Positions 7,661 to 59,423 of a DNA stretch of 64,000 nt are shown piece after piece; position 1 is the first letter of the stretch; every line of letters begins with the position of its first letter. Source of the stretch: Ornithinimicrobium sediminis (GTDB taxonomy: Bacteria; Actinomycetota; Actinomycetes; Actinomycetales; Dermatophilaceae); assembly GCF_021272345.1 (NCBI RefSeq), contig NZ_JAJSDQ010000002.1:62001-126000 (forward strand), written 5' to 3'. Below the pieces are notes generated by a model. That model was not told the origin of the DNA and searched no databases. It was given only the letters and a program-made list of their open reading frames with translations. The translations under genes were made by a program, and so were the position numbers.

Positions 7661-9192
7661 TGGAGTTCACCGCTCCTGACATCGACTGGGCAGCGCTGCT
7701 GCCCCTGATCATCGTCTTCGTCGGCGGTCTTCTCGGTGTGGCCGTCGAGGGCTTCGCCGGCCGGGCCCACCGCCACATGGTGCAGGTGCCGCTCACGGTG
7801 GCCACCCTGGTGCTGGCCCTCGCGGCAGTGGTCCTCGTCGCTCGGGACAGCCAGGGCATCACGGCCGCCGGAGCGGTGGCCAACGACGGTCCGGCGCTGC
7901 TGCTGCAGGGGCTCATCCTGTCGCTGGCCGTCATCGGGGTGCTCGTCATGAGCGAGCGCTTCGGTGGGCAGAGTGCGGATGCCTTCACCCAGGCGGGCGT
8001 GTCCGTGCCCGGCTCGGCGGAGGAGTCGCTGGCGACCCGGCTCGGGGCCACCACCACGGAGGTCTACCCGCTCACACTGTTCTCCGTCGGCGGCATGATG
8101 CTCTTCGGGATGGCCAACGACCTGATCCTGATGTTCATCGCGCTGGAGATCCTCTCCCTGCCGCTCTACATCCTGACCGGTCTGGCGCGCAGGCGACGGC
8201 TGCTGTCCCAGGAAGCCTCCCTGAAGTACTTCCTGCTGGGGGCCTTCTCCTCGGCGTTCTTCCTCTTCGGGGCCACCCTGATCTACGGCTTCGCCGGCTC
8301 GATGCGCTTCGACGTCATCGCCGAGGCGGTGCGGACCGGGGTCGGCATGGACGGGCTGCTCGTGCCCGGCATCCTGCTGGTCGGGGTCGGCCTGCTGTTC
8401 AAGATCGGCGCGGTGCCGTTCCACGCCTGGACACCGGACGTCTACCAGGGCGCCCCGACGCCGGTCACCGGCTTCATGGCCGCCTGCACCAAGGTCGCCG
8501 CGTTCGGCGCGATCCTGCGGGTGTTCTACGTCGCGGTCGAGCCGGCCCGGCTGGAGTGGCAGCCGATCCTGGCCGTCGTCGCCGCCCTGAGCATGATCGT
8601 GGGCGCGGTGATGTCGGTGCGCCAGAGCGACATCAAGCGCATCCTGGCCTACTCCTCCATCGCGCACGCCGGCTTCATCCTGGTGGGTCTGCTGGCCCTG
8701 GAGTCTGCAGGCATCTCCGGCACGCTGTTCTACCTGGCGGCCTACGGCTTCATGACCATCCCCGCCTTCGCGCTGGTGACGCTGGTCCGCTCCTCCGGCA
8801 GCGAGGCGACGCACGTGTCCCAGTGGTCGGGCCTGGCCCGGCGTGCGCCGTGGGTGGCGGCGGGCTTCAGCTTCCTCATGCTTGCCTTCGCAGGCATCCC
8901 GCTCACCTCCGGCTTCACCGGCAAGTTCGCGGTCTTCTCCGCAGCGGTGGCCGGTGGTGGAGCATGGCTGGTCGTCATCGGCGTGCTGGCCAGCGCCGTG
9001 ACCGCCTACGTCTACTTCCGGGTCATCGTGACGATGTACTTCGGCGAGAGCCACGGCGACACGGTGGTCATCACACCGTCGGCGATGACGACCTTCGCGA
9101 TCGTCACCGGCGTCGTCGTCACCCTCGGCCTGGGGGTCATGCCCTCGCCGCTGCTCGAGCTGACCCAACAGGCCTCGCAGTTCCTGCGCTGA
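7660..9192 (+). CDS. nuoN: NADH-quinone oxidoreductase subunit N
   Basis: 510 aa. ATG at 7660 overlaps the nuoM stop by one base; a GTG one codon upstream is a weaker alternative. NuoN/ND2 is the third antiporter-like channel. Visible signatures are FIALEILSLPLYILTGLARR (channel glutamate), [20 protein letters not shown] and SGFTGKFAVFSAAV. The stop TGA shares a base with the ATG of the polyprenyl synthase, tying quinone supply to the complex I operon. Confidence 0.97.
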   Translation: MEFTAPDIDWAALLPLIIVFVGGLLGVAVEGFAGRAHRHMVQVPLTVATLVLALAAVVLVARDSQGITAAGAVANDGPALLLQGLILSLAVIGVLVMSERFGGQSADAFTQAGVSVPGSAEESLATRLGATTTEVYPLTLFSVGGMMLFGMANDLILMFIALEILSLPLYILTGLARRRRLLSQEASLKYFLLGAFSSAFFLFGATLIYGFAGSMRFDVIAEAVRTGVGMDGLLVPGILLVGVGLLFKIGAVPFHAWTPDVYQGAPTPVTGFMAACTKVAAFGAILRVFYVAVEPARLEWQPILAVVAALSMIVGAVMSVRQSDIKRILAYSSIAHAGFILVGLLALESAGISGTLFYLAAYGFMTIPAFALVTLVRSSGSEATHVSQWSGLARRAPWVAAGFSFLMLAFAGIPLTSGFTGKFAVFSAAVAGGGAWLVVIGVLASAVTAYVYFRVIVTMYFGESHGDTVVITPSAMTTFAIVTGVVVTLGLGVMPSPLLELTQQASQFLR

Positions 9193-12964: not shown

Positions 12965-13975
12965 GTGTCGTCACCACGCTCCCGCCGCCTGCTCGCAGGC
13001 CTCCTGGCCATCGCCCCGCTCGCCGTGCTCCTCGCGCTGGCACCGGTGCTTCCGCCTCCCGGCGCGGTGCCCGCCCGCTGGGGGGTCGGCGGTGACGTCG
13101 ACAGGGTCATGTCCGGGACGGCCCTGTTGGGGACCACCCTGACGCTGACCGTCATCAGCGCCCTCACCGCGGGGCTCGTCGCCGGGCTGTCCCGGCTGGT
13201 GACGCCCCGGTGGTCCCGGGTGGTGCTGGCAGGGTGCGCCGCCGTCGGGGCGGGCGCGGCCGCGGTCTACGTGCTCACGGTGCTCGGGGTGCGGGTCGGT
13301 GGCGGCGCCGACGCGGTGACCGCGTGGTGGGCCCTCGCCGCGTTCCCGGTGGCCGCGGGCTGGAGCTGGCTCACGTATGCCGTCCACGGCGAGCACCGAC
13401 CTCCCCTGGCCGAGGTGCTCGACACCGTGCCGGAGCTGGACCGTGTCGTGCCGGTCACCGGGGCGGTGCCCGGCGTGCCCTGGCGCTCCGACACGACCTC
13501 CCCGTCGCTGCGCTGGGTCGGGGTCTTCGTTGCGGCGGTCGCCGTGGTCGTGGTGGTGCTGCTGGTCGGCAGCGGCGACGGCTGGGTGCCGGCGCTGCTG
13601 CTGGGGGCCCCCGGCCTGGCGCTCGCCCTGGTCGTGCACTCGCTCGCGCAGGTGCGCGCCGAGGTCGACGCCGAGGGGCTGCGGCTGCGCCCCCTCCGCC
13701 TGCCCGTGACGGTGCTGAGGGTGCGGGCAGAGGACGTCGTGGGGGTGGGGGTCGCCGACCTCGACCCGCTGGCCTGGGGCGGGTGGGGCCTGCGCTGGCT
13801 GCCCGACCGCAGCGCCTACATCGCCTCCGGCGGACCGGGCCTGGTGGTGCACCGGCGCAGTGGGCGCAGGCTGGCCGTCGAGCTCACCGAGGGTGCCCTG
13901 GCGGCGGCGGCCGGGAGACAGGCCCTGCGCGCGGTCGCGGGTCAGGCCCTCACGGGGGAGTCCACGACCTCCTGA
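12965..13975 (+). CDS. DUF1648-domain membrane protein of unknown function
   Basis: 336 aa from a GTG at 12965; a TACGCT -10-like hexamer ends 6 nt before it, suggesting a leaderless mRNA. The N-terminal part (about 10-60) resembles DUF1648: a membrane helix followed by PARWGVGGDVDRVMSG. About four or five further hydrophobic segments follow. A pair of helices at about 180-220 precedes a globular, bacterial-PH-like C-terminal half (VDAEGLRLRPLRLPVTVLRV). Function unknown. The last 34 bases overlap the end of the convergent MMPL gene. Confidence 0.75.
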   Translation: MSSPRSRRLLAGLLAIAPLAVLLALAPVLPPPGAVPARWGVGGDVDRVMSGTALLGTTLTLTVISALTAGLVAGLSRLVTPRWSRVVLAGCAAVGAGAAAVYVLTVLGVRVGGGADAVTAWWALAAFPVAAGWSWLTYAVHGEHRPPLAEVLDTVPELDRVVPVTGAVPGVPWRSDTTSPSLRWVGVFVAAVAVVVVVLLVGSGDGWVPALLLGAPGLALALVVHSLAQVRAEVDAEGLRLRPLRLPVTVLRVRAEDVVGVGVADLDPLAWGGWGLRWLPDRSAYIASGGPGLVVHRRSGRRLAVELTEGALAAAAGRQALRAVAGQALTGESTTS

Positions 13976-16605
13976 GGTCGGCTGCCGACGCCCACGGACC
14001 GCTCGAGGGCGGTGCCCTCGACGTCCACGTCGGGCAGGACCCGGTCGAGCCAGCGAGGCAGGTACCACGCCTTCTCACCGAGCAGGGCCATCACGGCGGG
14101 GGTGAGGGTCATCCGCACGACGAAGGCGTCGATGAGCACCCCCACCGCCAGGCCGAGCCCCACCGGGCGGATCATGGCCAGCTCGGCGAAGACGAACCCG
14201 CCGAACACCGAGACCATGATGACGGCGGCGGCGACGACCACCCGGGAGCTGTGGTTGAAGCCGGTGACGATCGCCTGCCGGGCGGGCTCTCCGTGCACGT
14301 GGGACTCCCGCATCGCTGACACCAGGAAGACCTGGTAGTCCATCGCGAGGCCGAAGAGCACCCCGATGAGCAGGATCGGCAGGAAGCTCAGGATCGGCCC
14401 GGGCTCGTTGACCCCGAAGACGACGTCGAGCACACCCCACTGGTAGGTCGCCACCACGGCACCGAAGGCTGCGCCCAGGGAGAGCAGGAAGCCCAGTGTC
14501 GCCAGCAGCGGGATGACCACGGAGCGGAAGACCAGGAGCAGCAGCAGCAGGGACAGGCCGACGACGACGGCCAGGTAGACCGGCAGCGCGTCGGACAGCT
14601 GGTTGCTGATGTCGATGTTGGCCACGGTCTGCCCGGTGAAGCCGAGGGTGGCGCCGTTGTCGGCGCCGATCTGCTCGCCCTCCGCCTCCAGGGTGCCGAC
14701 GAGCTCCACGGTCGACTCCTCCGAGGGGCCGTCCTGCGGCACCATCTGGAAGGCCAGGGTCTGCCGGTCCTCGCTCACCCCGAAGGGCACGACGTAGACG
14801 ACCCCCTCGATCGCTGCCAGGTCCTCACCGAGGTCGGCCTGGGCGGACGCCAGGGCGCTCTCGCCCTCGGCCAGCGGCTCGTCGAGCTCGGCGACCGCGA
14901 TGACCGGGCCGTTGACGCCGGCCCCGAAGTTGCTGCGCACCGCGTCGTAGGTCTGGTATGCCGTGGAGTCGGCGCTCTCCGCACTGCCGTCGGGCAGGCC
15001 CAGGCGCAGGTCGGCGACCGGGAAGGACATCACCCCGACCAGAGCCAGGACGCCCAGGATGGTGAGCACCGGGCGGCGGATGACGGCGGCGGCCCAGCCG
15101 CGCTCGGTGTCGTCGTAGTGGCGGGGTCCGCCCGGACGGGCGCCGTCGGCCCCGGCTCGCTGCCTCTTCGGCAGCACCCGCTCGCCGACCAGCGACAGGA
15201 GCGCGGGGGTCAGCGTGAGGGCCACCAGCACGGCCACGAGCACCGTGGCGGCGGCGACCAGACCCATGACCGCGAGGAACGGGACGCCGGTGACGGTCAA
15301 CGCGGCCAGCGCGATGATGACGGTCATCCCCGCGAAGGCCACCGCGTTGCCCGAGGTCCCGGTCGCCAGCGCGATGGAGTCGCGCTGGGCCATGCCCTGG
15401 CGCAGCTGTGTCCGGTGCCGGTTGATGAGGAACAGGGAGTAGTCGATGCCCACCGCGAGGCCGAGCATGAGGGCCAGGGCAGGGGTGGTGTCGTTCATCT
15501 GCACGGCGCCGGAGAACGACAGCGCCCCCAGGACACCGACGGCCACGCCGACGAGGGCCATGAGCAGGGGGAGTCCGGCCGCCACGAGTGACCCCAGCAC
15601 GACGAGCAGCACGACGGCCGCCACGACCAGACCCAGGATCTCCCCGGGCCCCACGACCTCGCTGAGGTCCTGCACGATCTCCTGGCTGTAGTCGACCTCG
15701 ACGCCGCTGCCCTCCAGCTGCTCGCCGATCTCCTGGACGCGCTCGGTGAGCGCGGGGTCGAGGCTGTTGACGTCGTCGACGAAACGGACCTGGGCCAGGG
15801 CCACGGTGCCGTCCTCGGAGACGAACCGCAGCCCTTCGCTCAGCCCGGCGAGGCGCTCGCCGACCGCCAGTTGCTCGCGTCCGGCGTCGAGCTCCGCCTG
15901 ACCTGCCTCGAGCTCGGCCCGACCCTCCTCGAGCTCCTCCCGGCCGGCGTCGACCTCGGCCTGGCCGGCGTCCAGCTCCTCGCGCGCCTGGTCGATCTCG
16001 GCCTGCCCGGCCTCGAGCTGCTGCTCCGCGGCCGCGACCTGCTCTGCCGGGAGCTGGTCCCGGCCGGCCTCGAGCTGGGCTCGCCCGGCGTCCAGCTCCT
16101 CCTGTGCCGCGTCCAGCTCGGCCTGGCCGGCGTCGACCTCATCCTGGCCGGCGTCCAGCTCGGCCTCGGCCTCGGCGACCCGCTCGCGGCCTGCGTCGAC
16201 CTCGGCCTGGCCGTCGGCGAGCTCCTGCTCCGCCGTGGCGAGCTCCTCGTCGCCGGTGTCGAGCTGTTCCTGGGTGGCGAAGGGGTCGACCACCTCGGCG
16301 ACACCGTCGAGCTCACGCCACCCCTGCAGGACCTCCTCGACGGCCGTCCGGTCGTCGGCGTCGAACCCGTCCTCACCGGTGAAGACCACGGTCCCGGTGG
16401 CCCCGGCGGCGACCGGGATCTCCTGCCGGAGCTCCTCCAGGACGACCTCGAAGCGGCTGCCCGGGATGGAGAACTCCGTGGTGAGCGGCTTGCTGAAGAC
16501 CGCGGCGCTGCCGCCGACGAGCACGAGGACCGCCACCCATGCGGCGATGGTCGTCCAGTGGTGGTCGGCGCACCATCGGCCGAGGCGGTGCAGGAGGGAA
16601 GCCAC
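13942..16605 (-). CDS. MMPL-family (RND) exporter with long coiled-coil insertion
   Basis: 887 aa from GTG at 16605, preceded by AGGAG in GAAAGGAGCCCCCT; a longer in-frame start at 16662 lacks this site. Two RND/MMPL halves are visible, each one helix, a large extracytoplasmic domain and a group of helices; GIDYSLFLINRHR and AMDYQVFLVSAMR are the paired family motifs with their Asp-Tyr. Residues ~113-250, in the first extracytoplasmic domain, are an almost perfect heptad repeat (variants of AELDAGQ). This predicts a long coiled-coil hairpin. The neighbouring TetR gene at 16675-17328 points the same way and probably controls it. The substrate (lipid, drug or siderophore) is unknown. Confidence 0.9.
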   Translation of the reverse strand: MASLLHRLGRWCADHHWTTIAAWVAVLVLVGGSAAVFSKPLTTEFSIPGSRFEVVLEELRQEIPVAAGATGTVVFTGEDGFDADDRTAVEEVLQGWRELDGVAEVVDPFATQEQLDTGDEELATAEQELADGQAEVDAGRERVAEAEAELDAGQDEVDAGQAELDAAQEELDAGRAQLEAGRDQLPAEQVAAAEQQLEAGQAEIDQAREELDAGQAEVDAGREELEEGRAELEAGQAELDAGREQLAVGERLAGLSEGLRFVSEDGTVALAQVRFVDDVNSLDPALTERVQEIGEQLEGSGVEVDYSQEIVQDLSEVVGPGEILGLVVAAVVLLVVLGSLVAAGLPLLMALVGVAVGVLGALSFSGAVQMNDTTPALALMLGLAVGIDYSLFLINRHRTQLRQGMAQRDSIALATGTSGNAVAFAGMTVIIALAALTVTGVPFLAVMGLVAAATVLVAVLVALTLTPALLSLVGERVLPKRQRAGADGARPGGPRHYDDTERGWAAAVIRRPVLTILGVLALVGVMSFPVADLRLGLPDGSAESADSTAYQTYDAVRSNFGAGVNGPVIAVAELDEPLAEGESALASAQADLGEDLAAIEGVVYVVPFGVSEDRQTLAFQMVPQDGPSEESTVELVGTLEAEGEQIGADNGATLGFTGQTVANIDISNQLSDALPVYLAVVVGLSLLLLLLVFRSVVIPLLATLGFLLSLGAAFGAVVATYQWGVLDVVFGVNEPGPILSFLPILLIGVLFGLAMDYQVFLVSAMRESHVHGEPARQAIVTGFNHSSRVVVAAAVIMVSVFGGFVFAELAMIRPVGLGLAVGVLIDAFVVRMTLTPAVMALLGEKAWYLPRWLDRVLPDVDVEGTALERSVGVGSRPQEVVDSPVRA

Positions 16606-57199: not shown

Positions 57200-57203
<4 letters not shown>

Positions 57204-57916
57204 ACGCGACCATCACACGCCTGGCCGCGCGCTCGCTCTTCGGCAGACGCCGCGGCGTCCTCCTGGTCGTCCTGCCCTTCCTGCTCGTGGCGCTGTCGAT
57301 GGCGGTGGCGCTGCTGACCGAGGCGACGTCCGCGGTCGACCCGGTCACGGCCGTCTTCGGTCTCGGGCTGGTCCTGCCGCTCGTCGCGCTGCTCGTCTCG
57401 ACCGGCGTGATCGGCCCGGAGATCGAGGACGGCTCGATCGTCTACCTGCTCGCCACCCCGGTCTCACGGCTGTCGGTGGCGGTGAGCAAGCAGGTCGTCG
57501 CCTCCGTGGTCACCGTGGTGCTCGGTGCCGGTGCGGTCCTCACCTCCGCCCTGGTCCTCGCCCCCGGGTCGCCGGGCCAGGCGCTGGCACTCGGCCTCGG
57601 GGCCGTGGTGGCCGGGCTCGCCTACTGCGGGCTCTTCGTCGCGCTCTCGGCGCTGCTGCGTCATGGCACGGTCGCCGGGCTGATCTACGTGCTGGTCTTC
57701 GAGGGCCTGCTCGCGTCGTGGCTCTCCGGGCTGCGCTACCTGTCCGTGGGCTCCTTCGGGCGCCGTGTCGCCGGCGCGCTGACCGACGACCTCGACCTCG
57801 TGGTGCGCGACATGAGCCTGGTGTACGGCGTGGTCGCGGCCCTGGTGTTCACCGTCGGCGGGGCGTTGGTCACGGCTCACCGGCTGCGCTCGTTCGAGCT
57901 CCGCGGCGACGACTGA
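57200..57916 (+). CDS. ABC-2 type exporter permease (second)
   Basis: 238 aa from GTG at 57200, six helices. VIGPEIEDGSIVYLLATPVS is the ABC-2 permease loop motif. Its stop at 57914-57916 is immediately followed by the 32-bp repeat array, which lies between this gene and the convergent aminotransferase. Confidence 0.87.
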
Positions 57917-57918
57917 CT

Positions 57919-58061
57919 GCCAGGGAGTCTGCACCCCCCCGTCGCGCCTTGCTAGAGAGTCTGCATGCCCTCGTCGCGCCTTGCTAGGGAGTCTGCATGC
58001 CCTCGTCGCGCCTTGCTAGGGAGTCTGCATGCTCATCTCGTCCGTTGCCAGGGAGTCTGCA
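57919..58061 (+). repeat. direct half of a 32-bp-period repeat array (5 copies)
   Basis: GAGTCTGCA occurs at 57925, 57957, 57989, 58021 and 58053, exactly 32 bp apart. Each copy is preceded by TTGCTAGG or TTGCCAGG (GCCAGG in the first, TTGCTAGA in the second), giving a ~17-bp conserved core TTGCYAGGGAGTCTGCA. Cores are separated by 15 bp that is similar in copies 1-3 (TGCCCTCGTCGCGCC type) and diverged after copy 4. It starts 2 bp after the ABC permease stop. Confidence 0.95.
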
Positions 58062-58084
58062 CGGATCGCCAAAGACGCTCAGCC

Positions 58085-58202
58085 TGCAGTCTCCCTGGCA
58101 AGACGGTCAGCGGGGGTGCAGTCTCCCTGGCAAGACGGTCAGCGGGGGTGCAGTCTCCCTGGCAAGACGGTCAGCGGGGGTGCAGACTCCCTGGCAACGC
58201 GG
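58085..58202 (-). repeat. inverted half of the 32-bp-period repeat array (4 copies)
   Basis: TGCAGTCTCCCTGGCAA (the reverse complement of the left core with one A/T change) occurs at 58085, 58117 and 58149, and TGCAGACTCCCTGGCAA (exact reverse complement) at 58181, again 32 bp apart. The intervening GACGGTCAGCGGGGG is identical in the first three copies. Its GGTCAGCGGG matches the last bases of the aminotransferase gene (58201-58210), including its stop codon. The two halves are separated by 23 bp (58062-58084). Confidence 0.95.
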
Positions 58203-59423
58203 TCAGCGGGCCTCGCCGAGAAGCTGCTGGATGCGGCCCACACCCTCGGCGAGGTCGTTGTCGCCGAGCGCGTAGGACAGCCGCAGGTAGCCACTGGGGC
58301 CGAAGGCCTCACCCGGCACGACCGCGACCTCCACCTCGTCGAGGATCAGGGCCGCGAGCTCGGCCGAGGTCTGCGGGGTGCGGCCGCGGATGGTGCGGCC
58401 CAGCAGTCCCTCCACGCTGGGGTAGGCGTAGAAGGCACCCTGCGGTGTCGGACAGTGCAGGCCGTCGATCTCGTTGAGCATCGACACCATTGTGCGACGT
58501 CGCCGGTCGAAGGCCACCCGCATCTCGTCGACGGCCTCCAGGGACCCCTGGAGGGCCGCGACCGCAGCACGCTGGGAGACGTTGGCGACGTTGGAGGTGG
58601 CGTGCGACTGCAGGTTGGTGGCCGCCTTGACGACGTCCTTCGGGCCGATCATCCAGCCGACCCGCCAACCGGTCATGGCGTAGGTCTTGGCGACGCCGTT
58701 CAGCACGACGCAGGTGTCCGCCAGCTCGGGCACCACGACAGGCATGGACGGCGCCTGCGCTCCGTCGTAGAGCAGGTGCTCGTAGATCTCGTCGGTGACG
58801 ACCCAGATCCCGTGCTCCAGCGCCCAGCGGCCGATGGCCTCGACCTGCTCGGGGGGGTAGACCGCCCCGGTGGGGTTGGACGGGCTGCAGAACAGCAGGA
58901 CCTTGGTGCGGGCGGTGCGGGCCGCCTCCAGCTGGTCGACGGTCACCAGGTAGCCCTGGTCGGCGCCCGCGAACACCTCGACGGGGACGCCGCCGGCGAG
59001 CCGGATCGCCTCCGGGTAGGTCGTCCAGTAGGGGGTCGGCAGGACGACCTCGTCGCCGGGGTCGAGCAGCGCCGCGAAGGTGTTGTAGACCGCCTGCTTG
59101 CCGCCGTTGGTGATGAGCACGTTCGCGGGCTCCACGGCATACCCCGAGTCGCGCAGCGTCTTGTCCACGACGGCCTGCTTGAGCGCAGGGAGGCCCCCCG
59201 CGGGTGAGTACCGGTGGTTCACCGGGTCCTGGCACGCGGCGACCGCGGCCGCCACGACGTAGTCGGGCGTGGGGAAGTCCGGCTCGCCGGCGCCGAAGCC
59301 GATGACCGGACGGCCCTCCGCCTTGAGGGCCTTGGCCCTGGCGTCGACGGCGAGGGTGGCAGACTCGGCGATCGAGCCGATCCGGGCGGAGATGCGGGAC
59401 GGGTGCTGGGTGCTCTGGCTCAC
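58203..59423 (-). CDS. aspC: pyridoxal-phosphate aminotransferase, aspartate type (class I)
   Basis: 406 aa, GTG start. Fold-type I class Ib aminotransferase: [51 protein letters not shown] with the PLP-binding Asn, and the Schiff-base lysine in [19 protein letters not shown], followed by RLSYALGD with the substrate-carboxylate Arg. It most likely transfers amino groups between aspartate and 2-oxoglutarate. Convergent with the ABC operon; its 3' end is the apparent source of part of the repeat unit. Confidence 0.94.

Follow-up and report, generated by a model that had tools for sequence, protein, structure and literature searches.

A genus-specific family of polar 32-bp repeat arrays at gene ends in Ornithinimicrobium

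The prevailing view is that bacterial gene ends are determined chiefly by hairpins or by Rho. REPs fold as imperfect palindromes and are often accompanied by a RAYT transposase; in Neisseria, opposed pairs of DUS at gene 3′ ends are considered to act in termination; and on ribosomal DNA, TTF-I bound to arrays of boxes brings about roadblock termination. Yeast Reb1 is likewise described as a roadblock terminator (PMC10310618). In H. influenzae and A. pleuropneumoniae, opposed uptake words at the 3′ ends of genes are thought to act in termination (PMC5217627). The TAACTGA direct repeats of Beggiatoaceae, Cyanobacteria and Bacteroidetes are heptamers that, in the genome described, lie mostly just 5′ of start codons, and a role in translation has been proposed for them (PMC4679880).

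The array considered here was detected in the window, which is the whole stretch of 64,000 nucleotides of Ornithinimicrobium sediminis DNA that was analysed (G+C 72%). The original prediction set it apart from CRISPR, and rightly so: the core is short and degenerate, the spacers are often alike and the copies stand in opposed orientation. A kinship with REP/BIME elements spread by RAYT had also been suggested and finds no support, as the unit is not foldable and the RAYT domain (Y1_Tnp, PF01797) is absent from all 31 congeners, in a search that was positive in 5 of 14 control genomes. RAYT-driven mobility is ruled out on the same count.

The window array and its relatives in the genome

The array and the two genes that flank it comprise the following features.

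57200 to 57916, plus strand: ABC-2 type permease gene (open reading frame; Pfam PF12679/PF12730), its stop directly before the forward array
57917 to 57933, plus strand: forward core 1, with the lowest matrix score, 10.1
57949 to 57965, plus strand: forward core 2 (core match and matrix)
57981 to 57997, plus strand: forward core 3 (core match and matrix)
58013 to 58029, plus strand: forward core 4 (core match and matrix)
58045 to 58061, plus strand: forward core 5 (core match and matrix)
58062 to 58084, no strand: 23-bp centre between the opposed runs
58085 to 58101, minus strand: reverse core 4, the innermost (core match and matrix)
58117 to 58133, minus strand: reverse core 3 (core match and matrix)
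58149 to 58165, minus strand: reverse core 2 (core match and matrix)
58181 to 58197, minus strand: reverse core 1, with the top matrix score, 31.3, 6 bp from the aminotransferase stop
58203 to 59423, minus strand: class I/II aminotransferase gene (aspartate aminotransferase-like; open reading frame; PF00155, E 2.5e-74), owner of the reverse run

The 286-bp gap between these convergent genes, bounded by the permease stop (57914-57916) and the minus-strand aminotransferase stop (58203-58205), is wholly occupied by the array, as had been claimed. The reanalysis also recovers the nine 17-bp cores, each within one mismatch of TTGCYAGGGAGWCTGCA, their division into five forward and four reverse copies with every step inside either half equal to 32 bp, and the 23-bp centre at 58062-58084. 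The borders of the halves are in part different: the forward half covers 57917-58061 instead of 57925-58053, and the reverse half does start at 58085 but extends to 58197. The description of the spacers as near-identical within a half fits the reverse side, where all three are identical, but not the forward side, where spacers 1 and 4 are unlike the middle two. At up to three mismatches, 10 sites in the window match the core; shuffled sequences contain 0.45 on average, and none of 100 shuffles reaches 10. The tenth site is a stray with three mismatches at 8693. Tandem Repeats Finder reports a period of 32 in both array halves. At a distance from the array, a long minus-strand open reading frame (13942-16536) contains, at 15881-16226, tandem repeats with periods of 21, 42 and 63, probably a coding repeat.

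Absence of the core elsewhere had been named as a sign of a one-off event. The core in fact recurs across the genome, and one-off slippage is thereby ruled out. Over the 3.53 Mb of the genome it has 67 occurrences at up to three mismatches, whereas its reversal has 14; two cores 32 bp apart (at most one mismatch) match 49 times and their reversal never. In 200 kb of fetched regions, which were picked around known matches, scanning with a weight matrix of the unit identifies 135 cores, and a single one on the reversed sequence. In these regions the cores fall into 25 clusters of at least two, with 5 lone cores besides; both orientations are present in 15 of the clusters and 10 are one-sided. 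Runs of two to five cores occupy at least 26 gaps of this genome: seven runs have two cores, 15 have three, 11 have four and five have five, alongside seven single-core runs. A profile search of the genome with model R1 adds at least one place, C10:311714, among the best 150 of 2710 candidates. In a 257-Gb collection of named genomes, which may leave out this one, at least 109 stretches contain a core pair. Among the matches listed nearly all are a single pair, read as chance, and two stretches (L094 and L162) have two matches each.

Core switching and shared gene ends in congeners

None of 30 congeners has the exact core pair, and model R1, judged on the best 150 candidates per genome, has matches only in this genome among the 31. 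The aminotransferase gene ends of G006 and G023 carry 32-bp units built on a different core. The pattern of this sister core (at most two mismatches) has 72 matches in G006, 77 in G010, 44 in G015, 28 in G018 and 110 in G023; it has 6 in G008, 3 in this genome, 1 in G019 and none in the 23 others. Model R2, run with the stricter filters of Infernal over 186 genomes of the family (53 genera), matches in nine, all of this genus and this genome not among them: between 6 and 40 times in G006, G008, G010, G015, G018, G019 and G023 and once each in G013 and G024. The cores of this genome and of the sisters can be aligned by hand on G-G-T-T-T, TTNNNNGNGGTTTNG, and one run of this genome, at C7:490626, reads TTGCTAGGGGTTTCG, which includes the sister word TAGGGGTTTCG. 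Five sister species have many copies of a diverged, alignable core, and two more have fewer, with a third variant at one gene.

The places occupied appear to be more stable than the core. Of 14 sampled sister orthologues of array-owning genes, 6 have an array; the corresponding figure for all fetched genes is 46 of 934. The six represent four genes, two of which share one gap. One case of a kept place is a glgP-like gene (PF11897, PF00343), matched in 18 of the 31 congeners, whose end carries an array in seven of the eight species of the array-bearing group. At this end the present genome has three copies of its own core, the sister core is found in three copies in G006, G010 and G018 and in two in G015, and a third related core occurs in three copies in G008, where a hairpin follows the array, and in two in G019. 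G023 has a degenerate pair and a hairpin. Among nine of the other ten congeners matched, there are hairpins at this end in G013, G014 and G001, G016 has an apparent second-class pair (see below) that can also fold, and the gap is no longer than 12 bp in G003, G022, G024 and G027 and measures 54 bp in G005. Arrays recur at orthologous gene ends, so that the core has switched across the genome at places that were kept. In a tree of the aminotransferase from 29 congeners, six sister-core genomes group together (84/97) and this genome falls with the array-poor G013 (85/87), where 200 kb contain no array and R2 matches once in the whole genome. This grouping requires either one loss or two gains of the arrays. 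Among plasmids, the aminotransferase has its best matches in Nonomuraea and Streptomyces, which agrees with an actinobacterial origin.

A second class of arrays is built from a different 32-bp unit, CCCACCGAGCGC..., and obeys the rules of the first as far as these were checked. Of the 31 congeners, 18 have its pattern: the highest counts are 232 matches in G023 and 178 in G010, two of the 18 have a single match, and this genome has none. Across 396 genomes of the order, 40 have any match, with one or two each outside this genus. In regions of G028 and G012 picked around known matches, 95 of 100 steps measure 32 bp. The runs of these two genomes lie 3′ of a gene in sense in 21 of 29 cases, 5′ in antisense in seven and inside a gene in antisense in one, and opposed neighbours are oriented >..< six times and <..> twice. 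G010 has the first and the second class in one genome, where the second-class matrix also caught 12 lone cores. Second-class arrays are located in G010 at L218:13066-13305, L215:1935-2063, L251:18389-18453 and L257:7802-7899, and in G028 and G012 at L292-L311.

Several other repeats were encountered in the congeners. The second-class matrix also picked up thirteen 33-bp repeats at L213:4993-5389 of G010, probably a coding repeat of 11 residues. A convergent gap of G015 (L263:9134) contains a possible third 32-bp unit, CAACTGCGTGTGGCGCGGTCCGAACCTTGC. Tandem repeats of about 22 bp stand 3′ of the aminotransferase in G026 (L081) and G015 (L070), where other species have 32-bp arrays or hairpins. 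A dispersed element with GGCCAGGAGCTCGCAAGCTCGCGAGTTCCTGGC and a GGTTTCCCGG-like motif is shared by ++ gaps of G006 (L207:14172), G010 (L217:10025) and G015 (L227:5414), and a dispersed long palindrome, reading TGCGTGGGGTT...AACCCCACGCA or nearly so, is present in gene-end gaps of G018 (L067) and G015 (L230:19589).

Polarity, spacing and structure of the arrays

With genes called by a simple in-house codon-usage script rather than a standard annotator, 31 of the 38 runs of at least two cores in this genome follow a stop codon in the sense direction, the first core beginning between −6 and +33 bp from that stop. The other seven comprise six that are antisense to the gene behind, several of these calls being short and doubtful, and one in sense inside a called gene. 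The 65 runs of three sister species (G006, G010 and G015) divide into 46 in sense at the 3′ side, 12 antisense at the 5′ side, six antisense inside a gene and one in sense inside a gene. Taken over this genome and the sisters, 24 of the 26 runs that are not 3′ and in sense are antisense to the gene that they abut or that encloses them, and two are in sense inside a called gene. Read by eye, several of the 5′ cases in sisters directly precede a likely ribosome-binding site and start codon, and some sister runs fall in apparent linker or tail coding sequence. In 5′ and 3′ cases alike, it is one and the same end of the unit that faces the gene. Since sister units read in sense carry TAG triplets, their absence from coding sense may only reflect translation. 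Opposed neighbours are oriented >..< in 15 of 15 cases in this genome and in five of five in the sisters; one <..> pair in G010 was called by an early, badly trained matrix. Similar open reading frames of G006, G010 and G015 enclose two-unit arrays at an apparently matching place (L204:19507, L214:17633 and L224:5957); these arrays lie antisense to the gene, in a frame that stays open.

A preference for convergent gaps is also apparent. In three 200-kb sister stretches around the aminotransferase locus, arrays occur in 4 of 56 convergent 3′ flanks of at least 60 bp, against 1 of 170 co-directional ones; in the window, which was chosen for its array, 2 of 10 convergent 3′ flanks and none of 12 co-directional ones have an array. 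A model-free measure, self-similarity at lag 32, gives 10.7, 21.5 and 17.0 per thousand in the 3′ flanks of three array species, 0.6, 3.8 and 2.4 per thousand in their 5′ flanks and 0.0 and 0.2 per thousand in the non-array G013. Lesser peaks of self-similarity are seen at lag 36 in G006, at 24 and 35 in G010 and at 25 in G013. The repeats are a genus-specific family of polar gene-end arrays.

The spacing is strict. Same-strand steps in this genome measure 32 bp in 54 cases, 31 bp in 34, 30 bp in one and 62 bp in one, so that 88 of 90 equal 31 or 32; in three sister species 98 of 103 equal 32 bp, with two of 31, two of 33 and one of 35. Neighbouring spacers are no more than 50% identical in 45 of 88 comparisons here and in 52 of 100 in the sisters; the mean identity of random spacer pairs is 37% and 43%, respectively. 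Because about half of the adjacent spacers have diverged, the spacing cannot stem solely from recent duplication. The earlier idea of an expanding satellite survives to the extent that, in this genome, units next to each other have higher similarity (0.53 for the spacer and 0.81 for the core) than units paired at random (0.37 and 0.68), but it does not account for spacing that is kept where spacers have diverged. Three turns of B-DNA measure about 31.5 bp, and a unit of about 32 bp would therefore display the repeated core on one face of the DNA. A clear 10.5-bp A/T period was not found inside the unit: the best fits, 9.5 and 12.75 bp, disfavour a simple phased-bend reading.

The composition of the core suggests the level at which it is read. 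At unit position 11 in this genome, A (0.46) and T (0.47) are interchangeable, with C at 0.03 and G at 0.05 (99 cores). In the sisters, a 4-bp tract by the core is pure A/T in 142 of 167 units (TTTT 116, AAAA 13, ATTT 12, TTTA 1) and includes a TpA step in one of the 142. Such a wholesale exchange of T blocks for A blocks would suit a protein that contacts the minor groove of DNA and would be difficult to reconcile with one that reads RNA. From these A/T positions of either polarity we infer recognition at the level of DNA; a co-evolving protein and an action as terminator or roadblock are likewise putative.

RNA structure is an unlikely carrier of the function. The original prediction envisaged a long hairpin, and the gap as a whole does fold strongly, owing to the complementarity of its halves (z about −11 for either strand). 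Single runs, however, are unstructured and 10 of the 25 clusters are one-sided, so that the hairpin is taken as a by-product of two opposed arrays and is ruled out as the active form. Median z is 0.12 for the 38 single runs of this genome, with none below −3, and −0.03 for the 65 of the sisters, with one below −3. Covariation and mutual information over 126 and 167 distinct units disclose no stem inside the unit. The strongest covarying pairs are mostly adjacent or close positions or lie inside the core of the next unit, the latter covarying because steps may be 31 or 32 bp and because not every unit is followed by another; pairing is raised in a few covarying pairs, such as 28-33 in the sisters (0.71, compared with 0.52). 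Rfam returns nothing above the gathering score at 57500-58700, where three microRNA matches score far below it, and no GC-rich stem-loop with a T tract of the intrinsic-terminator kind is present at 57700-58500. The base content of single runs is C 0.37 and G 0.31 here and C 0.27 and G 0.29 in the sisters.

Hairpins are scarcer where arrays stand. In fetched regions of four array genomes (G000, G006, G010 and G015), with second-class arrays counted as no array, strong hairpins, counted over the whole gap, are present in 3 of 41 array-bearing convergent flanks and in 50 of 131 array-free ones (Fisher p 8.5e-5); for co-directional flanks the corresponding counts are 1 of 23 and 63 of 318 (p 0.09). 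Tails of at least 40 nt beyond the array contain a hairpin in 3 of 37 cases. When only the first 150 nt are considered the figures are 1 of 64 array and 50 of 131 non-array flanks, the array itself occupying room there, and the scarcity may in part be an effect of space. Some non-array relatives have hairpins at the same gene end (partly judged by eye).

Possible modes of action and comparison with known systems

The best reading, held tentatively, is that these are phased, polar protein-binding arrays that stop RNA polymerase as it leaves a gene. A putative sequence-specific protein would bind the cores cooperatively along the phased row, and the bound row would halt RNA polymerase moving the way the units point. 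Behind a stop codon, a run would thereby end the gene's own transcript; just 5′ of a gene or antisense inside it, a run would block antisense transcription; and a convergent gap could hold one run from each side. The proposal of a DNA-binding row draws together the phasing, the polarity, the position, the interchangeable A and T, the lack of RNA structure, the scarcity of hairpins and the switching of cores; the role of bidirectional terminator that had been listed for the window array gains support as a possibility. The closeness of the first core to the stop codon imposes a constraint: were polymerase fully blocked at the first copy, the mRNA would end short of the stop codon, so that only the later copies, or an incomplete block, could work. 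Several observations weigh against this reading. As many as 18 of 65 sister runs lie 5′ of genes or antisense inside them, which speaks against a plain 3′-end terminator; array flanks with hairpins exist, and an array takes up space that a hairpin would use; the place of array-poor G013 in the tree calls for a loss or two gains; the unit has no 10.5-bp A/T period; and <..> pairs occur, one in G010 (from the poor early matrix) and two in the second class. The wider proposition is more doubtful: a class of bacterial transcription terminator in which the binding sites of a dedicated protein, helically phased and all pointing one way, stand in for an RNA hairpin. In such a class, specificity and genome-wide sites would change together between sisters, and more than one family of sites would coexist in some genomes.

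Other accounts have to be weighed against a protein-bound row that stops polymerase. The repeat could be read in RNA, as a 3′-UTR motif through which an RNA-binding protein or Rho ends, trims or stabilises the transcript. This is unlikely, even though 31 of 38 runs begin just after the stop in sense, where a 3′-UTR element would be, and the spacers are C-rich in this genome: interchange of A and T at key positions would be odd for RNA, stem-like covariation is missing from the unit and single runs are unstructured, nothing about unstructured RNA would obviously demand a strict 31/32 spacing, and the excess of C over G that Rho sites would call for is slight here and absent in the sisters. An account in terms of supercoiling takes gyrase sites in BIMEs as its model. 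The arrays would be sites for a nucleoid protein or a topoisomerase that relieve or bound supercoiling between convergent genes, with the transcripts not ended. The preference for convergent gaps in the three 200-kb sister stretches, the three-turn phasing and the A-tract-like positions agree with this account, which is nonetheless quite improbable, given that strict polarity and a core that changes between close species are unfit for a conserved enzyme such as gyrase and that array gaps, being poor in hairpins, suggest a role like that of a terminator.

It is also rather improbable that the arrays are selfish or neutral satellites whose units spread, homogenise within a lineage and survive only where genes are left unbroken. 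Such an origin would explain why adjacent units resemble each other more than random ones, why tandem repeats of other periods are also present in gaps of G006 and G010 and why some runs sit in apparent linkers or tails of open reading frames. It is at odds with the absence of RAYT from all 31 congeners, with spacing and core being kept while spacers diverge, with the use of the same gene ends across species (the orthologue and glgP-like counts above) and, again, with the scarcity of hairpins.

If phased rows of bound protein do stop polymerase, a dispersed, polar, sequence-specific site array would be a third way to end bacterial genes, similar in principle to the terminators of eukaryotic ribosomal DNA and standing where some relatives have hairpins. 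Since the core has changed genome-wide between close species at places that were kept, the system also lends itself as a natural experiment on the joint change of a putative DNA-binding protein and its dozens of sites.

A search of the full-text literature, in which subscription papers are mostly absent, found no described family with this layout. The arrays resemble REP/BIME elements as short extragenic repeats that often lie 3′ of genes or in convergent gaps, with opposed orientations possible, but they are tandem direct repeats with fixed spacing, their single runs are unfolded and the 31 congeners have no Y1_Tnp. With the USS/DUS pair terminators they share a short word repeated in opposed copies at gene 3′ ends; whereas an inverted USS/DUS pair makes one hairpin, the arrays have up to five direct copies per side and no hairpin on either side, and 10 of the 25 clusters are one-sided. 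Unlike the TAACTGA heptamers, their units measure 32 bp and are located mostly 3′ of genes. Intrinsic terminators occupy the same gene ends, as hairpins, in some relatives, but single runs have no stem-loop and the window gap has no T-tailed one. The likeness to roadblock termination, should the proposed mechanism hold, would lie in a sequence-specific DNA-bound protein that halts RNA polymerase at gene ends; the arrays differ from the Reb1 and TTF-I roadblocks in being bacterial, in serving many genes, in a core that switches between sister species and in a protein that is here only putative. The nearest kinds thus all differ in tested features or in layout and, judged from architecture, the arrays would constitute a new category.
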